This document shows, one piece after another, positions 21,160-27,644 of a stretch of DNA of 35,140 bases (position 1 is its first letter; the number at the start of each line of letters is the position of its first letter). The DNA is from a virus. The stretch covers positions 1 through 35,140 of IMG/VR virus record IMGVR_UViG_3300035204_001535; one strand, given 5' to 3'. Made by a program: the position numbers and the translations under genes. Below the pieces are notes generated by a model. It ran no database searches and was not told the origin of the DNA. It saw nothing but the letters and a program-made list of their open reading frames with translations.

Positions 21160-21383
21160 CAGTCAAACTCCTTTTTCCCCTTTTTAGAATAAATTTCTTC
21201 ATGGGCGTTTTTTATTTCAAAATAATGATTAAAATCTTTATGCATACCCGATTCCGATAATTTATTTTCATCACAATATTTTTTTACGTTTTCTTTACCC
21301 AATATGATACTCGGTTTCCAACACTTTTTTTCAACATCCCAAGTCTCAACAAATAAAATTTCTGTATTATCTAATCCCGACAT
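21159..21383 (-). CDS. Small hypothetical protein between terminase and portal (74 aa)
   Basis: The start at 21383 ('MSGLDNTEILFVE') is chosen because CAGGAG lies six bases before it. An upstream in-frame ATG at 21404 lies deeper inside the terminase gene without a good site. The product is charged and mixed alpha/beta ('TWDVEKKCWKPSIILGKEN', 'HKDFNHYFEIKNAHEEIYS') with a lysine-rich tail. It overlaps the terminase stop by 17 bases and the portal start by one. No known domain is seen. Position alone suggests a packaging or head-assembly helper. Confidence 0.65.
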   Translation of the reverse strand: MSGLDNTEILFVETWDVEKKCWKPSIILGKENVKKYCDENKLSESGMHKDFNHYFEIKNAHEEIYSKKGKKEFD

Positions 21384-22743
21384 ATTCACTCCTGTCATCC
21401 TCACCGGCTAACCTATCAATTAATTTTTCTATATTAGTCTTGGGACGGTTGTTGGGAGCATCGGGTCTGCCTATGTGCATCAGTAAATAACGGATTGCAT
21501 CTGGGATGTGATCTTCACCTTTTGTGTTAATATCCTCTGGCCTATGTTCATCATGCACCTGGGTGGGTATGGTCCTGATAACATTTTCACAATTCTTAAA
21601 TATTTTAAGTTTAGGTGGCTTATTTTCTAAATAATGAAGGTATTCCCTCATATTGTTCCAGCCGTTGATTCTGTCATTGTTCGCTTTTACACATGGAATA
21701 CCAGCAAACAGCATTATGTCAGCAATCGACATAATACTGGGCATCTTGTTGTTTAAATTCTTGCTGTTTTGCGGATTCCTGATCCACATGGCAGGATCAC
21801 AAATAGTTAAAAAAATGTCCTCATCACCAGATAATTCCAAAATTCTTGTAATATGGTGATTTAACTCCTTACCCTTCTCATAATGCTCACGATATATGTA
21901 AACATTACCGTCATGGTCTACGGCTGCCCATATACAGGCAAATGGTGCCGCAAATCCGTAGTCTACGGCCCTGTATCTGCGCCAGGTAGGTGGTATCTCA
22001 AATGGCTCAATTACATGCTCTTCCCTACACCATTGCTTGAAAAACTGACCAGCAAATATATCCCAATCACCATCCAACCAGGCACGACGTAATTCGTCCG
22101 GTAAACCCTTTAACATCTCTATATAACCTGGATCTACCTCCATCAATGTCGGATTATCATATACCCTGGATGGGATAAATATCCGGGTACCGGTGGTCAC
22201 CGGATCATTATACGTTTCATTGTAGGCAACATCCACAAATCGTGTTTTTACCCAATGATGACCAGGACCGCCTGGGTTTGTAGTGCAGAAGATCTGCGGT
22301 GTAAGTTCTGGAATTGTGGATCTTGCCGATGAAATTAAACGCAAATACAATTCCTCCTCAGCAATCAACGTTAACTCTTCTATACCAATCTTATGGTATT
22401 CATGGCCTAAAAACGCCGTCCAAGCATTCTGGTCTGTAAGGTGACCGGTACGGATCTTAGCACCTGACGGGAAACGAAATTCCGCTGGATTACCAACTAC
22501 CTTAACATCTAAAAACCTGTACATCTCCTTGGCCTTATCAATCCAATCACGCAAATCTGTATAATTACGACGTATTACCAAACCACGATATAATGGATTG
22601 TTTATATGAGAAGGCTCGATCATCCAGGCTGTCATTGCCGTCGATTTACCCCCTCCGCGGCTACCCCCAAATAAAATCTCTTTTTCAGAGCGGGTTAATG
22701 CCTCGGTCTGGGGACCAGGGTGGGGCTGGAATACTATATTCAA
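21367..22743 (-). CDS. terL: Terminase large subunit
   Basis: The ATPase half carries Walker A 'GGSRGGGKST' (26-35), Walker B 'KIGIEE' (118-123) with the catalytic Glu, and the coupling motif 'TTNPGG' (154-159). The C-terminal nuclease half shows acidic residues in 'RAVDYGF' (D260), 'TICDPAMW' (D315) and 'IPDAIRY' (D414). At 458 residues it is normal for phage TerL. It cuts and pumps concatemeric DNA into the prohead through the portal. The only start in frame is TTG at 22743, overlapping the previous stop as TTGA with AGGA seven bases before, an unusual start in this genome. Confidence 0.95.
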   Translation of the reverse strand: MNIVFQPHPGPQTEALTRSEKEILFGGSRGGGKSTAMTAWMIEPSHINNPLYRGLVIRRNYTDLRDWIDKAKEMYRFLDVKVVGNPAEFRFPSGAKIRTGHLTDQNAWTAFLGHEYHKIGIEELTLIAEEELYLRLISSARSTIPELTPQIFCTTNPGGPGHHWVKTRFVDVAYNETYNDPVTTGTRIFIPSRVYDNPTLMEVDPGYIEMLKGLPDELRRAWLDGDWDIFAGQFFKQWCREEHVIEPFEIPPTWRRYRAVDYGFAAPFACIWAAVDHDGNVYIYREHYEKGKELNHHITRILELSGDEDIFLTICDPAMWIRNPQNSKNLNNKMPSIMSIADIMLFAGIPCVKANNDRINGWNNMREYLHYLENKPPKLKIFKNCENVIRTIPTQVHDEHRPEDINTKGEDHIPDAIRYLLMHIGRPDAPNNRPKTNIEKLIDRLAGEDDRSEYVGIR

Positions 22744-23978: not shown

Positions 23979-24206
23979 TTTATTGACAATTTGAATTGAT
24001 TTCGTTCCTGAAATGGTCGGCAAAGGGGCTAGATACCGACGACGAAATCACCGAGTGAATGGACCGGTCAGGACACGGTAGGTACTCACTCGAGACTCGA
24101 AACGGGGGAAAGATTTTAACGGGCAATACAATAGAATTTGTCTCAACGATCTGACCGGGCTGAGAGTATAAATAAAAAGATTAGTTCTCTCTCCAAGGGT
24201 TGGCTA

Positions 24207-24272
24207 GTCGGGAGCAACCAACGGAAATAAATACCCGACAAGATTTTCACAAACAAACAAACGGAGAGAACA
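24207..24272 (+). promoter_or_regulatory. Hairpin leader copy 1
   Basis: GTCGGG (24207-24212) pairs with CCCGAC (24234-24239), leaving a 21-base loop. AAGATTTTCAC follows directly, then an A/C-rich stretch and GGAGAGAACA before the ATG at 24273. This is the long-loop member of the five-copy family. Confidence 0.6.
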
Positions 24273-24716
24273 ATGAGACAAGTACATATAAAAAACGAAA
24301 CTAGCTATGGTGCTAAACTATTAAAGTCTGGAAATGAAACATACAATCTGAGAAGACAAGTGATTAACATCATTTATGAATGCATCAATCTTGGTAAAAA
24401 TAATAACCTGAAAAGGTTACCAAGGATTGAAGTAAGGATTGTAGACAAGTGCGAATGCGACGTAGTTGGATACGCTTACCTGGATCAAAACATTATCCAT
24501 ATCCCCCAGGGGACAATTAAGCGTTCAAATGCATACCTTACTAATGTAGTGTTGCACGAAATATTGCATGCTATTGGTTTCAACCATATCAATGATTGCC
24601 CTTTGCTTGATCCTGAAATAAAAAGACTAAGCAAAGATACTTCATATAAATTGTTTTTGAAGTATTACAAACAATGGTCCAAGTACGGTGGACCGGCATC
24701 ATACGATAACTTATAA
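24273..24716 (+). CDS. Metzincin-like metalloprotein (HExxHxxGxxH)
   Basis: The 147-residue protein contains 'LHEILHAIGFNH' (H95, E96, H99, G102, H105), the exact zinc-binding consensus of metzincin metalloproteases, within a helix-like context preceded by beta-type 'AYLDQNIIHIPQ', as in the edge strand before the active-site helix. There is no signal peptide and no Met-turn that I can place, so it would be a minimal cytoplasmic member. It is first in the plus-strand block with leader copy 1 and GGAGAG upstream. Possible roles: cleavage of a host or phage regulator, or an anti-host factor. The zinc motif is certain, protease activity is inferred. Confidence 0.7.
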   Translation: MRQVHIKNETSYGAKLLKSGNETYNLRRQVINIIYECINLGKNNNLKRLPRIEVRIVDKCECDVVGYAYLDQNIIHIPQGTIKRSNAYLTNVVLHEILHAIGFNHINDCPLLDPEIKRLSKDTSYKLFLKYYKQWSKYGGPASYDNL

Positions 24717-24723
24717 CAACCGA

Positions 24724-24780
24724 GCCAGGGCGGTAAGTCCCTGGCAAAGATTTTCACAAACAAACGAAATGGAGAGAACA
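24724..24780 (+). promoter_or_regulatory. Hairpin leader copy 2
   Basis: GCCAGGG (24724-24730) and CCCTGGC (24739-24745) form a 7-bp stem with an 8-base loop. Then come AAAGATTTTCAC, AAACAAACGAAAT and GGAGAGAACA before the ATG at 24781. The stem sequence differs from the other copies while the pairing is kept. Confidence 0.7.
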
Positions 24781-25137
24781 ATGAAACTATCAACCATATC
24801 ACAATACCTGAAGTTCCGTGATTACTTAGAAAACCTAAGGAGTACTATTAACAAGTTTGATGGTCCTCAACGGTGGAGTAGGAACCAACCATTTGAAGAT
24901 GCATTAGGCAATCGAATAGTGTTGGTATCCGAAAGCAGGGACGGAGAAGAATACGGCATAGAACCGGGGAAGTTTTACCCGCCAAGCCTATTGATAACCA
25001 TCAATAATAAGCTGAAAAAAGAAGGCAAAGACTTGCCAATATTTCATTCCGATTATGATAGTCTAGATTATCATGTTAGTTATGTTTGGTCAGAAGACTA
25101 TAGGTTTATACACGCTATCGACTTACTCCCTCACTAA
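24781..25137 (+). CDS. Hypothetical protein (118 aa)
   Basis: The start at 24781 (MKLSTISQYLKFRDYLE) is set by GGAGAG seven bases upstream and by the conserved leader. A longer frame reaching back to 24688 would run through the hairpin and is not credible. The product is soluble, mixed alpha/beta and rich in Tyr, Asp and Ser, with no cysteine or recognised motif. It shares the MKL start and leader with the following gene, but not obvious sequence. Unknown function, probably an accessory or host-takeover protein (inference from position). Confidence 0.75.
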   Translation: MKLSTISQYLKFRDYLENLRSTINKFDGPQRWSRNQPFEDALGNRIVLVSESRDGEEYGIEPGKFYPPSLLITINNKLKKEGKDLPIFHSDYDSLDYHVSYVWSEDYRFIHAIDLLPH

Positions 25138-25150
25138 AAAAAAACACCAT

Positions 25151-25206
25151 GCCGGTGTGGTATATCACCGGCAAGATTTTCATAAACAAACGAAATGGAG
25201 AGAACA
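25151..25206 (+). promoter_or_regulatory. Hairpin leader copy 3
   Basis: GCCGGTG (25151-25157) and CACCGGC (25166-25172) give a 7-bp stem with an 8-base loop, then AAGATTTTCATAAACAAAC and GGAGAGAACA before ATG 25207. A 46-base stretch (25144-25189) is identical to the one at 26419-26464. Confidence 0.7.
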
Positions 25207-25665
25207 ATGAAACTGACAAATACACAAATAGATAAGCTATTTAAAGCTAACTATGATCCCCATGTATGCAATATAATTCTACATGGAGATGAATTACCAG
25301 GTTATGTATGGGAAGAAATTCAAGGCATACTTGGAATTAATTCATCAGGGGTACAGCTTGCGGTAATTGGTGTTAAAGAGTTGGGAACGACTGATACACC
25401 AGATACAGACCACCTTTCAGATGAAGAACGGTCTGCATTAAGCGACCGTTTAAACGAGGTTGAGCGCACCCATAGAAGATGGTGGGGATTAGATAAAATA
25501 AGCGGTGGCTATGTTCATGCCACGTTTTCCGATCATGATGAAAACTATATATACATCAACCTGAAAGGCGGTGTTCAAAGTGATTGTCAAAACACGGTGA
25601 CTAGCAATGAAGACCTAACCCTGGACAGAAAAACCCTTGATTGGACTGTACCGGAAGTCGCTTAA
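25207..25665 (+). CDS. Hypothetical protein (152 aa)
   Basis: The start at 25207 (MKLTNTQIDKLFKANYD) follows GGAGAGAACA. The in-frame ATG at 25195 lies in the ribosome binding site and is rejected. The protein is acidic, soluble and mixed alpha/beta ('SGVQLAVIGVKELG', 'EERSALSDRLNEVERTHRRW', 'NYIYINLKGGVQSD'). I recognise no domain. Like its neighbours it stands alone between leader elements instead of overlapping them, unlike genes elsewhere in the window. Confidence 0.75.
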   Translation: MKLTNTQIDKLFKANYDPHVCNIILHGDELPGYVWEEIQGILGINSSGVQLAVIGVKELGTTDTPDTDHLSDEERSALSDRLNEVERTHRRWWGLDKISGGYVHATFSDHDENYIYINLKGGVQSDCQNTVTSNEDLTLDRKTLDWTVPEVA

Positions 25666-25700
25666 CATATCCTGAGTACGCCAACTCAACCTAACAGCCT

Positions 25701-25767
25701 GGGGGGTGCTGAGAATCCCCCCTAAAGATTTTCACAACAAAACACAACACTCAAAAAGGAGAGAATA
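25701..25767 (+). promoter_or_regulatory. Hairpin leader copy 4
   Basis: GGGGGG (25701-25706) and CCCCCC (25717-25722) form a 6-bp stem with a 10-base loop, then AAAGATTTTCAC, an A/C-rich stretch and AAGGAGAGAATA before the ATG at 25768. The most diverged copy, yet the order of parts is kept. Confidence 0.6.
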
Positions 25768-26412
25768 ATGAAAACAATAATAGATAGTTATCGTGAACAA
25801 GTAGATAACACCCCGGAAGAAATATTGGCGAACACCCACTACTTATATCTTAAAGTGGTGGCATATGCTCAACGATATTGGGGAACAGATGATATATATG
25901 CAGAGGCGCATCATTGCGAGAATTGTGATCAACCAAGTAAAGATGGTTACAAGGATTACAATGGTCACAATTTCTGCGAGATATGTTACAATGACTTCGC
26001 AAACCAGGAACCTGAAGAAAAAACCTATGATAAGGAATTATCAGACCTGGCAGACGAGATTCGGGATGCAACTAACAAGGTAATCAGAGAGAAATTGGCT
26101 ACCAAAGAACAAGATGATGAATATCTAGGCAGTACCCAGGAAGATATAGATAGATATGCAGTACTACGGTGGTTTGATAAACACTCACAACCTAACCCAG
26201 ACGGGAATACACTTGCCATCAGGAAAACTGAAATTGATGGACGTATCGATCTGGAAGTGATTGACGTTACTCTTACTGAAGAGTTAATACGTCAAGAATA
26301 CGAAGATGGCGAGGATTCTGTACTATCTGAAATCCTGGATGCGGAAAAATGGCCTGAGGCTACTGGTGAACTTCTGGATGAACATTATCCCCAGGACAAT
26401 GAAGAAGAATAA
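25768..26412 (+). CDS. Hypothetical acidic protein with a Cys4 zinc cluster (214 aa)
   Basis: Residues about 49-71 contain 'HCENCDQPSKDGYKDYNGH' followed by 'FCEICY', a CxxC...CxxC pattern of zinc ribbons or LIM-like knuckles. The rest is acidic and helical ('KELSDLADEIRDATNKVIRE', C-terminal 'DEHYPQDNEEE'). Strong AAGGAGAG precedes the ATG. Possible role as protein- or nucleic-acid-binding regulator. The family is not recognised. It lies between two unknown genes and integrase in the leader-tagged block. Confidence 0.7.
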   Translation: MKTIIDSYREQVDNTPEEILANTHYLYLKVVAYAQRYWGTDDIYAEAHHCENCDQPSKDGYKDYNGHNFCEICYNDFANQEPEEKTYDKELSDLADEIRDATNKVIREKLATKEQDDEYLGSTQEDIDRYAVLRWFDKHSQPNPDGNTLAIRKTEIDGRIDLEVIDVTLTEELIRQEYEDGEDSVLSEILDAEKWPEATGELLDEHYPQDNEEE

Positions 26413-26425
26413 CCTATAACACCAT

Positions 26426-26480
26426 GCCGGTGTGGTATATCACCGGCAAGATTTTCATAAACAAGACAAAGGAGAGAACA
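26426..26480 (+). promoter_or_regulatory. Hairpin leader copy 5 (before integrase)
   Basis: Same GCCGGTG/CACCGGC stem and 8-base loop as copy 3, then AAGATTTTCATAAACAAG and AAGGAGAGAACA before ATG 26481. Confidence 0.7.
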
Positions 26481-27644
26481 ATGAAAAGTAGACTAGAAAA
26501 GCGTGGAAAAGTATGGTGGTATGCATCTGGTAGCCGTAATGATAGAATCAGAAAATCACTCGGCACCGGTAACAAGCATATTGCTGAAGAACGGCAAAGA
26601 GCCTTAGACCAGGAATCCTGGATCAAGGAAAATTGCCCTGGTATTTACATTCAGGAATTGCTAGATCGTTCAAAGATCAACTTTGAAGATGTTGTTTCAT
26701 ACATCAAAGATAGTGGCAGTACTGTTGTATCTATAACCTTGCAGAAGTTTGCTGAATCGTGGTTAGATGGCATTGAGTTTAAAACTCCAAAGACTGAAAA
26801 AACTAAACGGCAAAGGGTTAAAACCTTTATCAGTTTTTTTGGTAAAGATGTTACAGTTGACCAGGTGACAGCTACTGACGTTAACGGGTTTTTAGCTAAA
26901 CTGTTGGCAGATAATTATGCTGAAAGTACCAGGCAATCATACTTGACGGTTATTAAGGAGTTTTTCTCAGTAGCAACCGAAAGGTATAACCTGCCATTGA
27001 ACCCGGCAAAGTCAACAGAGACTACCAAGATCAAGGTAAAGGCAACTCCGAAAGATCCGATTTCAGGAGAATTGTTATTCAAGACAATTGCCCGCACGAC
27101 TGTTGAACTGTACCGGAAACTGTCTAAGCTACATCCAAAGCGTGGCTTTACATCGGAGTCAGCCAGGAAAGATCAAGCATTTTGGTCGATCATGGCCTAC
27201 ACCGGGGTAGCACCAATAGATGCATCTAGCTTGCAACCTGGAGATTTTGAGAATTTTGGCAAAGCCAGAACCAAGGTCGAAAACAATCATTCGGTGAGTG
27301 TTTACCTGGTAAGGGTAAAACAGTTGCTGAAGTTTGGTGATGATATTTTTGGCATCTGGTCAAAAAAACCATCTACCAGGGACAGCCAGATCGGTCAAAG
27401 CCGGGAACGGTTCAAGATACTGACAGATGGATGGACTTTTAAAGCCATTAGGCTATTTTACCTGAACGAACTTGAGGAAGAAGGTGCAAACCGGAAAACC
27501 ATCAAGGGTTTGGTAGGCCATAGCGAAAACTCACTAACGGCTGACAAGTACTACTTGAGAGGGAAAGAATCTGAGATGAAACAGGCCTCGCAGAGTTTAG
27601 CCGACAAATATGATTACTTACGGGAGGAGGTTGAAAATGACTAA
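26481..27644 (+). CDS. int: Tyrosine-family integrase, atypical catalytic set
   Basis: The start at 26481 (MKSRLEKRGKVWWYASG) follows AAGGAGAG. An earlier in-frame ATG at 26424 lies in the hairpin. Three parts: N-terminal arm-binding-like region (1-90); SAM-like core-binding domain (about 95-185, 'TLQKFAESWLDG...TRQSYLTVIKEFFSVA'); C-terminal catalytic domain with 'TFKAIRLFYLNEL' (box II, with Lys where His is usual), 'KGLVGHSENSLTADKYY' (His and nucleophile Tyr). The first catalytic Arg expected in 'TGLR' is Ala in 'YTGVAPIDASSL'. CTnDOT-type integrases also lack it, so the enzyme may still work. It inserts or excises the phage genome at att sites, which I could not locate. Confidence 0.85.
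   Translation: MKSRLEKRGKVWWYASGSRNDRIRKSLGTGNKHIAEERQRALDQESWIKENCPGIYIQELLDRSKINFEDVVSYIKDSGSTVVSITLQKFAESWLDGIEFKTPKTEKTKRQRVKTFISFFGKDVTVDQVTATDVNGFLAKLLADNYAESTRQSYLTVIKEFFSVATERYNLPLNPAKSTETTKIKVKATPKDPISGELLFKTIARTTVELYRKLSKLHPKRGFTSESARKDQAFWSIMAYTGVAPIDASSLQPGDFENFGKARTKVENNHSVSVYLVRVKQLLKFGDDIFGIWSKKPSTRDSQIGQSRERFKILTDGWTFKAIRLFYLNELEEEGANRKTIKGLVGHSENSLTADKYYLRGKESEMKQASQSLADKYDYLREEVEND

Follow-up and report, generated by a model that had tools for sequence, protein, structure and literature searches.

Structured leaders before successive genes of a divergent phage array: a candidate cistron-punctuation element whose slot holds hammerhead-type or tRNA-like folds in sister phages

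Five consecutive genes of a phage genome are each preceded by a compact, GC-rich RNA fold and a short linear leader. We propose, with evenly balanced confidence, that this leader is a cistron-punctuation element, which would split a long message into single-gene mRNAs. A punctuation mark is the most likely reading because sister phages fill the same slot with self-cutting hammerheads or tRNA look-alikes. The array, its predicted folds, their covariation and the equivalence of the slot with hammerhead-type and tRNA-like folds in sister phages are established by sequence comparison. The stretch of DNA analyzed (the window) is a complete IMG/VR virus record of 35,140 bases. Its minus strand holds the terminase and most genes, and five divergent plus-strand genes end in a tyrosine integrase. 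Array genes lie 64-102 nt apart, in contrast to most of the minus-strand genes, which overlap or are almost contiguous; this agrees with an earlier sequence-only reading that had set the non-overlapping array genes apart from the rest of the window. Protein family searches gave no SSB-like match among the array genes and left most of them without any match. The genes are as follows.

24273..24716, plus strand: gene 1 (w1), 147 aa, SprT/metalloprotease-like with HEIxH (weak Pfam match, E 0.001, below the cut-off)
24781..25137, plus strand: gene 2, 118 aa
25207..25665, plus strand: gene 3, 152 aa
25768..26412, plus strand: gene 4, 214 aa, with CxxC pairs
26481..27644, plus strand: gene 5, tyrosine integrase, 387 aa, the last leader-bearing gene (PHROG phrog_1, E 7e-23)
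21367..22743, minus strand: terminase large subunit, outside the element, which served to find and order relatives

Each of the five leaders consists of a hairpin, AAGATTTTCAYAA, an A/C-rich stretch and GGAGAGAAYA-ATG. The pattern AAGATTTTCAYAAMMAA-N{3,24}-GGAGAGAAYAATG has five matches in the window, each before one of the ATGs at 24273, 24781, 25207, 25768 and 26481, and none in 100 dinucleotide shuffles of the window, so that the five copies located by the sequence-only reading are confirmed. The five stem sequences that it gave are also correct; the stem score was reached by shuffled upstream 50-mers in 3 of 200 cases for copy 1 and in 0 of 200 for each of copies 2-5. The linear part, which had been called nearly invariant, does vary in copy 4, where about 9-10 extra nucleotides lie between the motif and the Shine-Dalgarno sequence (SD). 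A second helix had been missed: the bases immediately upstream of the stem (S2) can, in all five copies, pair with the start of the loop (S1). Since S1 pairing is possible in every window copy, each is a potential H-type pseudoknot (a-b-a′-b′), in which 1-4 nt separate the first strand of S1 from the stem and 0-2 nt separate the stem from the second S1 strand. Pairing predictions thus indicate that the window hairpins can form H-type pseudoknots, which are listed here with their linear leaders.

24198..24239, plus strand: copy 1 predicted pseudoknot, S1 24198-24202/24215-24219 (GGUUG/CAACC), S2 24207-24212/24234-24239 (GUCGGG/CCCGAC)
24240..24272, plus strand: copy 1 linear leader, AAGATTTTCA motif 24240-24249, A/C-rich stretch, SD GGAGAGAA 24263-24270
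24719..24745, plus strand: copy 2 predicted pseudoknot, S1 24719-24722/24731-24734 (ACCG/CGGU), S2 24724-24730/24739-24745 (GCCAGGG/CCCUGGC)
24747..24780, plus strand: copy 2 linear leader, motif 24747-24756, SD 24771-24778
25146..25172, plus strand: copy 3 predicted pseudoknot, S1 25146-25149/25158-25161 (ACCA/UGGU), S2 25151-25157/25166-25172 (GCCGGUG/CACCGGC)
25173..25206, plus strand: copy 3 linear leader, motif 25173-25182, SD 25197-25204
25695..25722, plus strand: copy 4 predicted pseudoknot, S1 25695-25698/25708-25711 (CAGC/GCUG), S2 25701-25706/25717-25722 (GGGGGG/CCCCCC)
25725..25767, plus strand: copy 4 linear leader with the longer spacer, motif 25725-25734, SD 25758-25765
26421..26447, plus strand: copy 5 predicted pseudoknot, same sequence as copy 3, S1 26421-26424/26433-26436, S2 26426-26432/26441-26447
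26448..26480, plus strand: copy 5 linear leader, motif 26448-26457, SD 26471-26478

Copies 3 and 5, which flank gene 4, are identical over about 46 bp (25143-25189 and 26418-26464), and the five copies therefore represent four independent structures. This identity suggests that the leader may have been copied recently with or around gene 4, and it touches weakly on the earlier idea of a transposable leader. The same two copies, and only those, pass a lax terminator scan, and GC-rich stems do follow stop codons, as a partial transcription terminator or attenuator between genes, perhaps acting with phage antitermination, would have it. We nevertheless consider such a terminator very unlikely. 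A U-tract is absent directly after the stem, where the window has AAGATTTTCA and the class B copies of relatives (see below) have CAAGAYTT; the element also stands ahead of the first gene, and ribozymes replace it in relatives. The attenuator that the sequence-only reading had put forward is for the first of these reasons not favored.

Both helices change between window copies. The S1 pairings had shuffle probabilities of 0.009-0.075 individually and of about 10^-6.3 jointly for the four distinct copies, values whose significance is overstated by such controls because the array copies are phylogenetically dependent. Across the phage group, 13 pseudoknot copies show 8 different S1 and 12 different S2 helices, and a strand of one S1 helix can pair with the partner strand of another, differing helix in only 13 of 142 combinations. 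In a pseudoknot alignment of only five rows, one of which (L430) is out of register by one in S2, 96.4% of the cells are paired and the covariation score is 0.427, compared with 0.192 after shuffling.

The terminase was used as a query to collect 80 IMG/VR loci; here and below, loci are labeled with L-numbers. The nearest relatives of the window carry about 49 further leader copies before successive array genes, giving about 54 in all. Window-type leaders precede successive genes of the same divergent array in L159, L162/L429, L164, L165/L432, L428 and L430 (70-74% terminase identity) and successive array genes in L434-L436; there are 11 copies in L162, the last one before the integrase, and 12 in L428/L431. 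The arrays of relatives end in an integrase where the contig reaches that far. Their leaders run in the order fold, AARRYTT (mostly AAGATTT), AT-rich stretch, AAAGGATAA and ATG. As the SD and the spacer differ between the window and its relatives while the fold and AARRYTT stay, the junction of fold and motif appears to be the conserved unit. The motif itself comprises about seven loosely conserved nucleotides (AAGATTT, AAAATTT, AAAGTTT, AAGACTT, AAAGCTT and AAAACTT), and the linear part is 84% A+T over 42 copies, the window's own spacer being A/C-rich.

The fold takes three forms: a window-like pseudoknot, of which ACCGAGCCGGGACGGTTAATTCCCGGC in L428 is nearly identical to window copy 2; a long pseudoknot ahead of the first array gene; and class B, in which the hairpin contains a bulged base (AAG-U-CCC...GGG-C-AAGAUUU). 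In the long form, which may be a regulatory RNA in its own right, the inner loop TGTACTTGATTTTAGTC is strongly conserved.

L428 10590-10680, L429 2510-2600, L430 6690-6775 and L432 220-305, also in L433 and L434: long first-gene pseudoknot

In the class B alignment, 96.3% of the cells are paired, seven of the eight pairs show two-sided changes, and the covariation score is 0.670, against 0.157 after shuffling. Selection on RNA structure, which the sequence-only reading had proposed from the differing stems, is thereby strongly supported in relatives. The pair under the class B bulge is G-C in 31 of 35 copies and A-U in the remaining 4. A pairing of AAGU with the downstream AUUU was considered for class B and dropped, since a G-C or A-U pair closing a one-nucleotide bulge fits better (35/35). 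No class B pseudoknot was found at the strength seen in class A; the pseudoknot itself is therefore inessential across the family. At one site in L430 (9190-9262), a window-like pseudoknot (ACCG.AACGGGA.CGGT...TCCCGTT) that lacks AAGATTT is followed directly, in tandem, by a class B hairpin with AAGACTT.

Searches beyond these loci were less productive. The element matches no family among the Rfam 15 covariance models, riboswitches included. The window integrase as a query recovered no relative. Over viral contigs, the short pattern AAGATTTTCAYAAMMAA gave mostly single, chance-like matches, and a longer window-type pattern gave chance or coding matches; L135 has a similar linear leader but lacks a matching hairpin. 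With regard to the host, the MAG matches (Flavobacteriales L238 and Oligoflexales L239) may be misbinned.

The slot occupied by the fold is filled differently in sister phages. Descriptors written for this analysis, on which both the hammerhead and the tRNA-like calls rest, place hammerhead-type ribozymes in the leader slot of L222, L226, L211 and L203, and a variant with one extra U after CUGAUGA in L207, L217, L218, L225, L228, L230, L232, L235 and L201; many of these ribozymes combine the extra U with a very short stem III. The predicted hammerhead cut lies 23-37 nt from the ATG (mean 32.2), and the window-type motif lies 28-43 nt from it (mean 32.7). The L222 hammerheads match the Rfam models RAGATH-1 hammerhead or Hammerhead_1 below the gathering threshold (at best 30.1 bits against 56.3, E 0.04), and gathering-level Rfam scans of the hammerhead arrays gave no match. 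Neither the descriptor scan nor Rfam finds a hammerhead core (CUGANGA - stem II - GAAA - stem III - UH) in the window. In the hammerhead arrays L222 and L232, the first gene has the leader but no ribozyme, which is what one would expect of a 5′ end that is already fixed by a promoter. In L212, the gene at 2389 of the reverse complement has a hammerhead-like leader with the core CCGATGA; the putative cut adjoins the start codon (GTC^TATGG) and would give a nearly leaderless mRNA.

In L188, L189, L190, L195, L197 and L203 (minus strand, upstream of the terminase), the slot holds tRNA-like folds, made of an acceptor-like stem and a T-arm with a TTCRANT loop, ending in C and devoid of an anticodon arm. 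In most of them a small hairpin lies 3′ of the fold, followed by an A/C-rich leader. ARAGORN called no tRNA in the tRNA-like loci searched. The folds may be RNase P/Z punctuation. Polycistronic RNA of mitochondria is punctuated by tRNAs, an arrangement that the folds of L188/L189/L195/L197 resemble, whereas the window element lacks an acceptor stem and a T-arm.

The terminase tree unites the window-type arrays in one clade (100/99), places most hammerhead arrays in a second and the tRNA-like arrays in a third, and has one further clade with none of these elements. As the element types are mostly clade-specific, direct swaps are limited to two cases. One is L203, in which one gene follows a hammerhead and another a tRNA-like fold. 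The other is gene 1, whose orthologs carry a window-type leader in L159/L447 and L434-L436 and a hammerhead in L207/L445 and L232. The expectation, attached to the sequence-only reading, that an irrelevant hairpin would be missing before the same genes in other phages thus has a split answer: same-clade orthologs of gene 1 keep the hairpin, and the sister clade has a ribozyme instead. Homologs of w1 in unrelated phages have neither a window-type leader nor a hammerhead. In unrelated phages (L446, L449 and L451), the w1 homolog is preceded by a different conserved, structured-looking leader with a GCTGAGAGTCAGC hairpin.

The earlier suggestion of a common RNA processing element has more support than the other readings offered before, given that the element gives way to hammerhead-type ribozymes and tRNA-like folds in the same slot of sister phages. 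The common denominator of the three leaders would be a compact RNA with its 3′ edge some 30 nt upstream of the ATG, then an unstructured A-rich leader and a strong SD. In hammerhead arrays the 3′ edge is the predicted self-cleavage point, and hammerhead cleavage is established chemistry; RNase Z is the enzyme that one would expect to act at the 3′ edge of the tRNA-like fold. For window-type RNA, we infer from sequence the cut, its position and the enzyme. The integrase-side array would be transcribed as one long RNA, in which the compact GC-rich fold before each gene would end flush against single-stranded AARRYUU. The cut at AARRYUU, which fits RN^WUU, would then be made by an endonuclease of the host, with RNase E or a functional equivalent as the most likely one. 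The upstream RNA would retain the fold as a protected 3′ end, and the downstream gene would receive a short unstructured A-rich leader (about 30 nt) with a strong SD, so that each gene could be translated and decay independently as a single-gene message. The RNase E consensus is RN^WUU in single-stranded AU-rich RNA (PMC5222698), although it may not be that of the host. It fits 41 of 42 copies, a match that is partly circular and amounts to consistency rather than proof, since AARRYTT served to collect the copies. A fold is also present at the first gene of window-type arrays, though that gene has no array gene before it. As simple cistron separation does not need a fold there, an extra role in stability or regulation is possible.

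Leader stem-loops can shield mRNA and keep the ribosome-binding site free. The element might accordingly be a passive 5′ stabilizer or insulator that shields the RNA and keeps the ribosome-binding site clear of upstream structure, with no specific cut. The roughly 54 copies of a compact GC-rich fold directly before an unstructured leader, and its presence even before the first gene, speak for such a role. It is nonetheless quite unlikely, as it leaves unexplained why a self-cleaving ribozyme, which takes itself out of the downstream RNA, should stand in for the element, and why AARRYUU is constant while the SD and the spacer differ between the window and its relatives. One could also imagine that the pseudoknot and AARRYUU form a new class of small self-cleaving ribozyme, given that the slot is that of the hammerheads, that conserved nucleotides adjoin the pseudoknot and that Rfam has no match. 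With only about seven loosely conserved nucleotides, a class B devoid of the pseudoknot and a size below that of most known ribozymes, this is highly improbable.

The main rival to punctuation is a translational operator like that of gene 32. A phage RNA- or single-stranded-DNA-binding protein would nucleate on the pseudoknot, spread over the leader and block the SD, and the array would be its regulon. The gene 32 leader of T4, T2 and RB69 comprises a pseudoknot, an unstructured A+U-rich stretch and the ribosome-binding site, with an RNase E site at -71, upstream of the pseudoknot (PMC3014915). The window copies are very similar in architecture, with a predicted H-type pseudoknot and an unstructured run to the ribosome-binding site, and they have a conserved motif between fold and SD. 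However, gene 32 is a single autoregulated gene, whereas the window has five unrelated genes with AARRYUU downstream of the fold. Moreover, the sequences of stem, loop and S1 are free to vary, the pseudoknot is missing from class B, and the array genes gave no candidate binding protein. The hammerhead that replaces the element before an orthologous gene is also hard to reconcile with a specific operator. By analogy with gene 32, an operator is conceivable but, on this evidence, unlikely.

Several other readings were rejected. For a promoter with AAGATTT as its -10 box, there is no consistent -35, the start would fall near the SD, and a promoter scan did no better than shuffles. An RNase III site is a long duplex of about 11 bp or more, and the window stems, with 6-7 bp (or 8 bp in copies 3 and 5 if one more pair is counted), are too short. 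In the early region of T7, RNase III sites between successive genes yield single-gene mRNAs, but these are long duplexes cut within the stem, as opposed to the 6-8 bp of the window. By inspection, an HDV-like or pistol ribozyme does not fit, because the helix order a-b-a′-b′ comes without their extra helices, and a known riboswitch is rejected for want of an Rfam match. PeSL cassettes of T4-type phages, which combine an early promoter and a stem-loop between small non-essential genes and have been proposed to aid gene shuffling, share the repeated stem-loop with the window leaders, for which the promoter scan gave no promoter signal. Cluster K mycobacteriophages have SAS/ESAS elements, in which a 13-bp GGGATAGGAGCCC at the start site and 17-bp inverted repeats are conserved in sequence (PMC3203893). 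The likeness is that a start-associated repeat is combined with an inverted repeat upstream of it, at some of the non-structural genes; unlike these, the window stems differ freely and can form pseudoknots, and there is no sequence similarity. The SAS repeat GGGATAGGAGCCC is absent from the window leaders, which carry GGAGAGAAYA-ATG at the start codons.

The closest precedent for punctuation is that of prophage hammerheads. Multiple hammerheads flank single prophage genes near integrases, for which processing into gene-length mRNAs was proposed, and cutting of long RNA by hammerheads was shown for A. tumefaciens (Perreault 2011; PMC3088659). These arrays (PMC3088659; Rfam RF03152, RAGATH-1 hammerhead) likewise place a repeated compact RNA before single genes near an integrase. 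The window element is smaller and lacks the CUGANGA/GAAA core, so any cut must be trans-acting. While hammerhead punctuation of prophage genes is thus already published, the pseudoknot/hairpin-AARRYUU family and its exchange with ribozymes and tRNA mimics appear new. Slightly more tentative than the punctuation role itself is the wider proposal that three RNA modules of unrelated chemistry serve a single phage group as interchangeable punctuation before each gene of its integrase-side array: a pseudoknot or hairpin with a nuclease site, which would be an undescribed RNA family, a hammerhead ribozyme, and a tRNA-like RNase P/Z mimic.

Hammerheads were recognized in phages more than ten years ago but, to our knowledge, still lack a proven role. 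That the same slot can hold a ribozyme, a tRNA mimic or a pseudoknot next to a nuclease-like site, and that orthologous genes can have either a ribozyme or a pseudoknot, makes it testable whether the cut itself, whatever its chemistry, is the selected function. If this proposal is true, these phages would supply a family of RNAs that Rfam does not include and, possibly, a small natural device with which genes of a single transcript can be separated.
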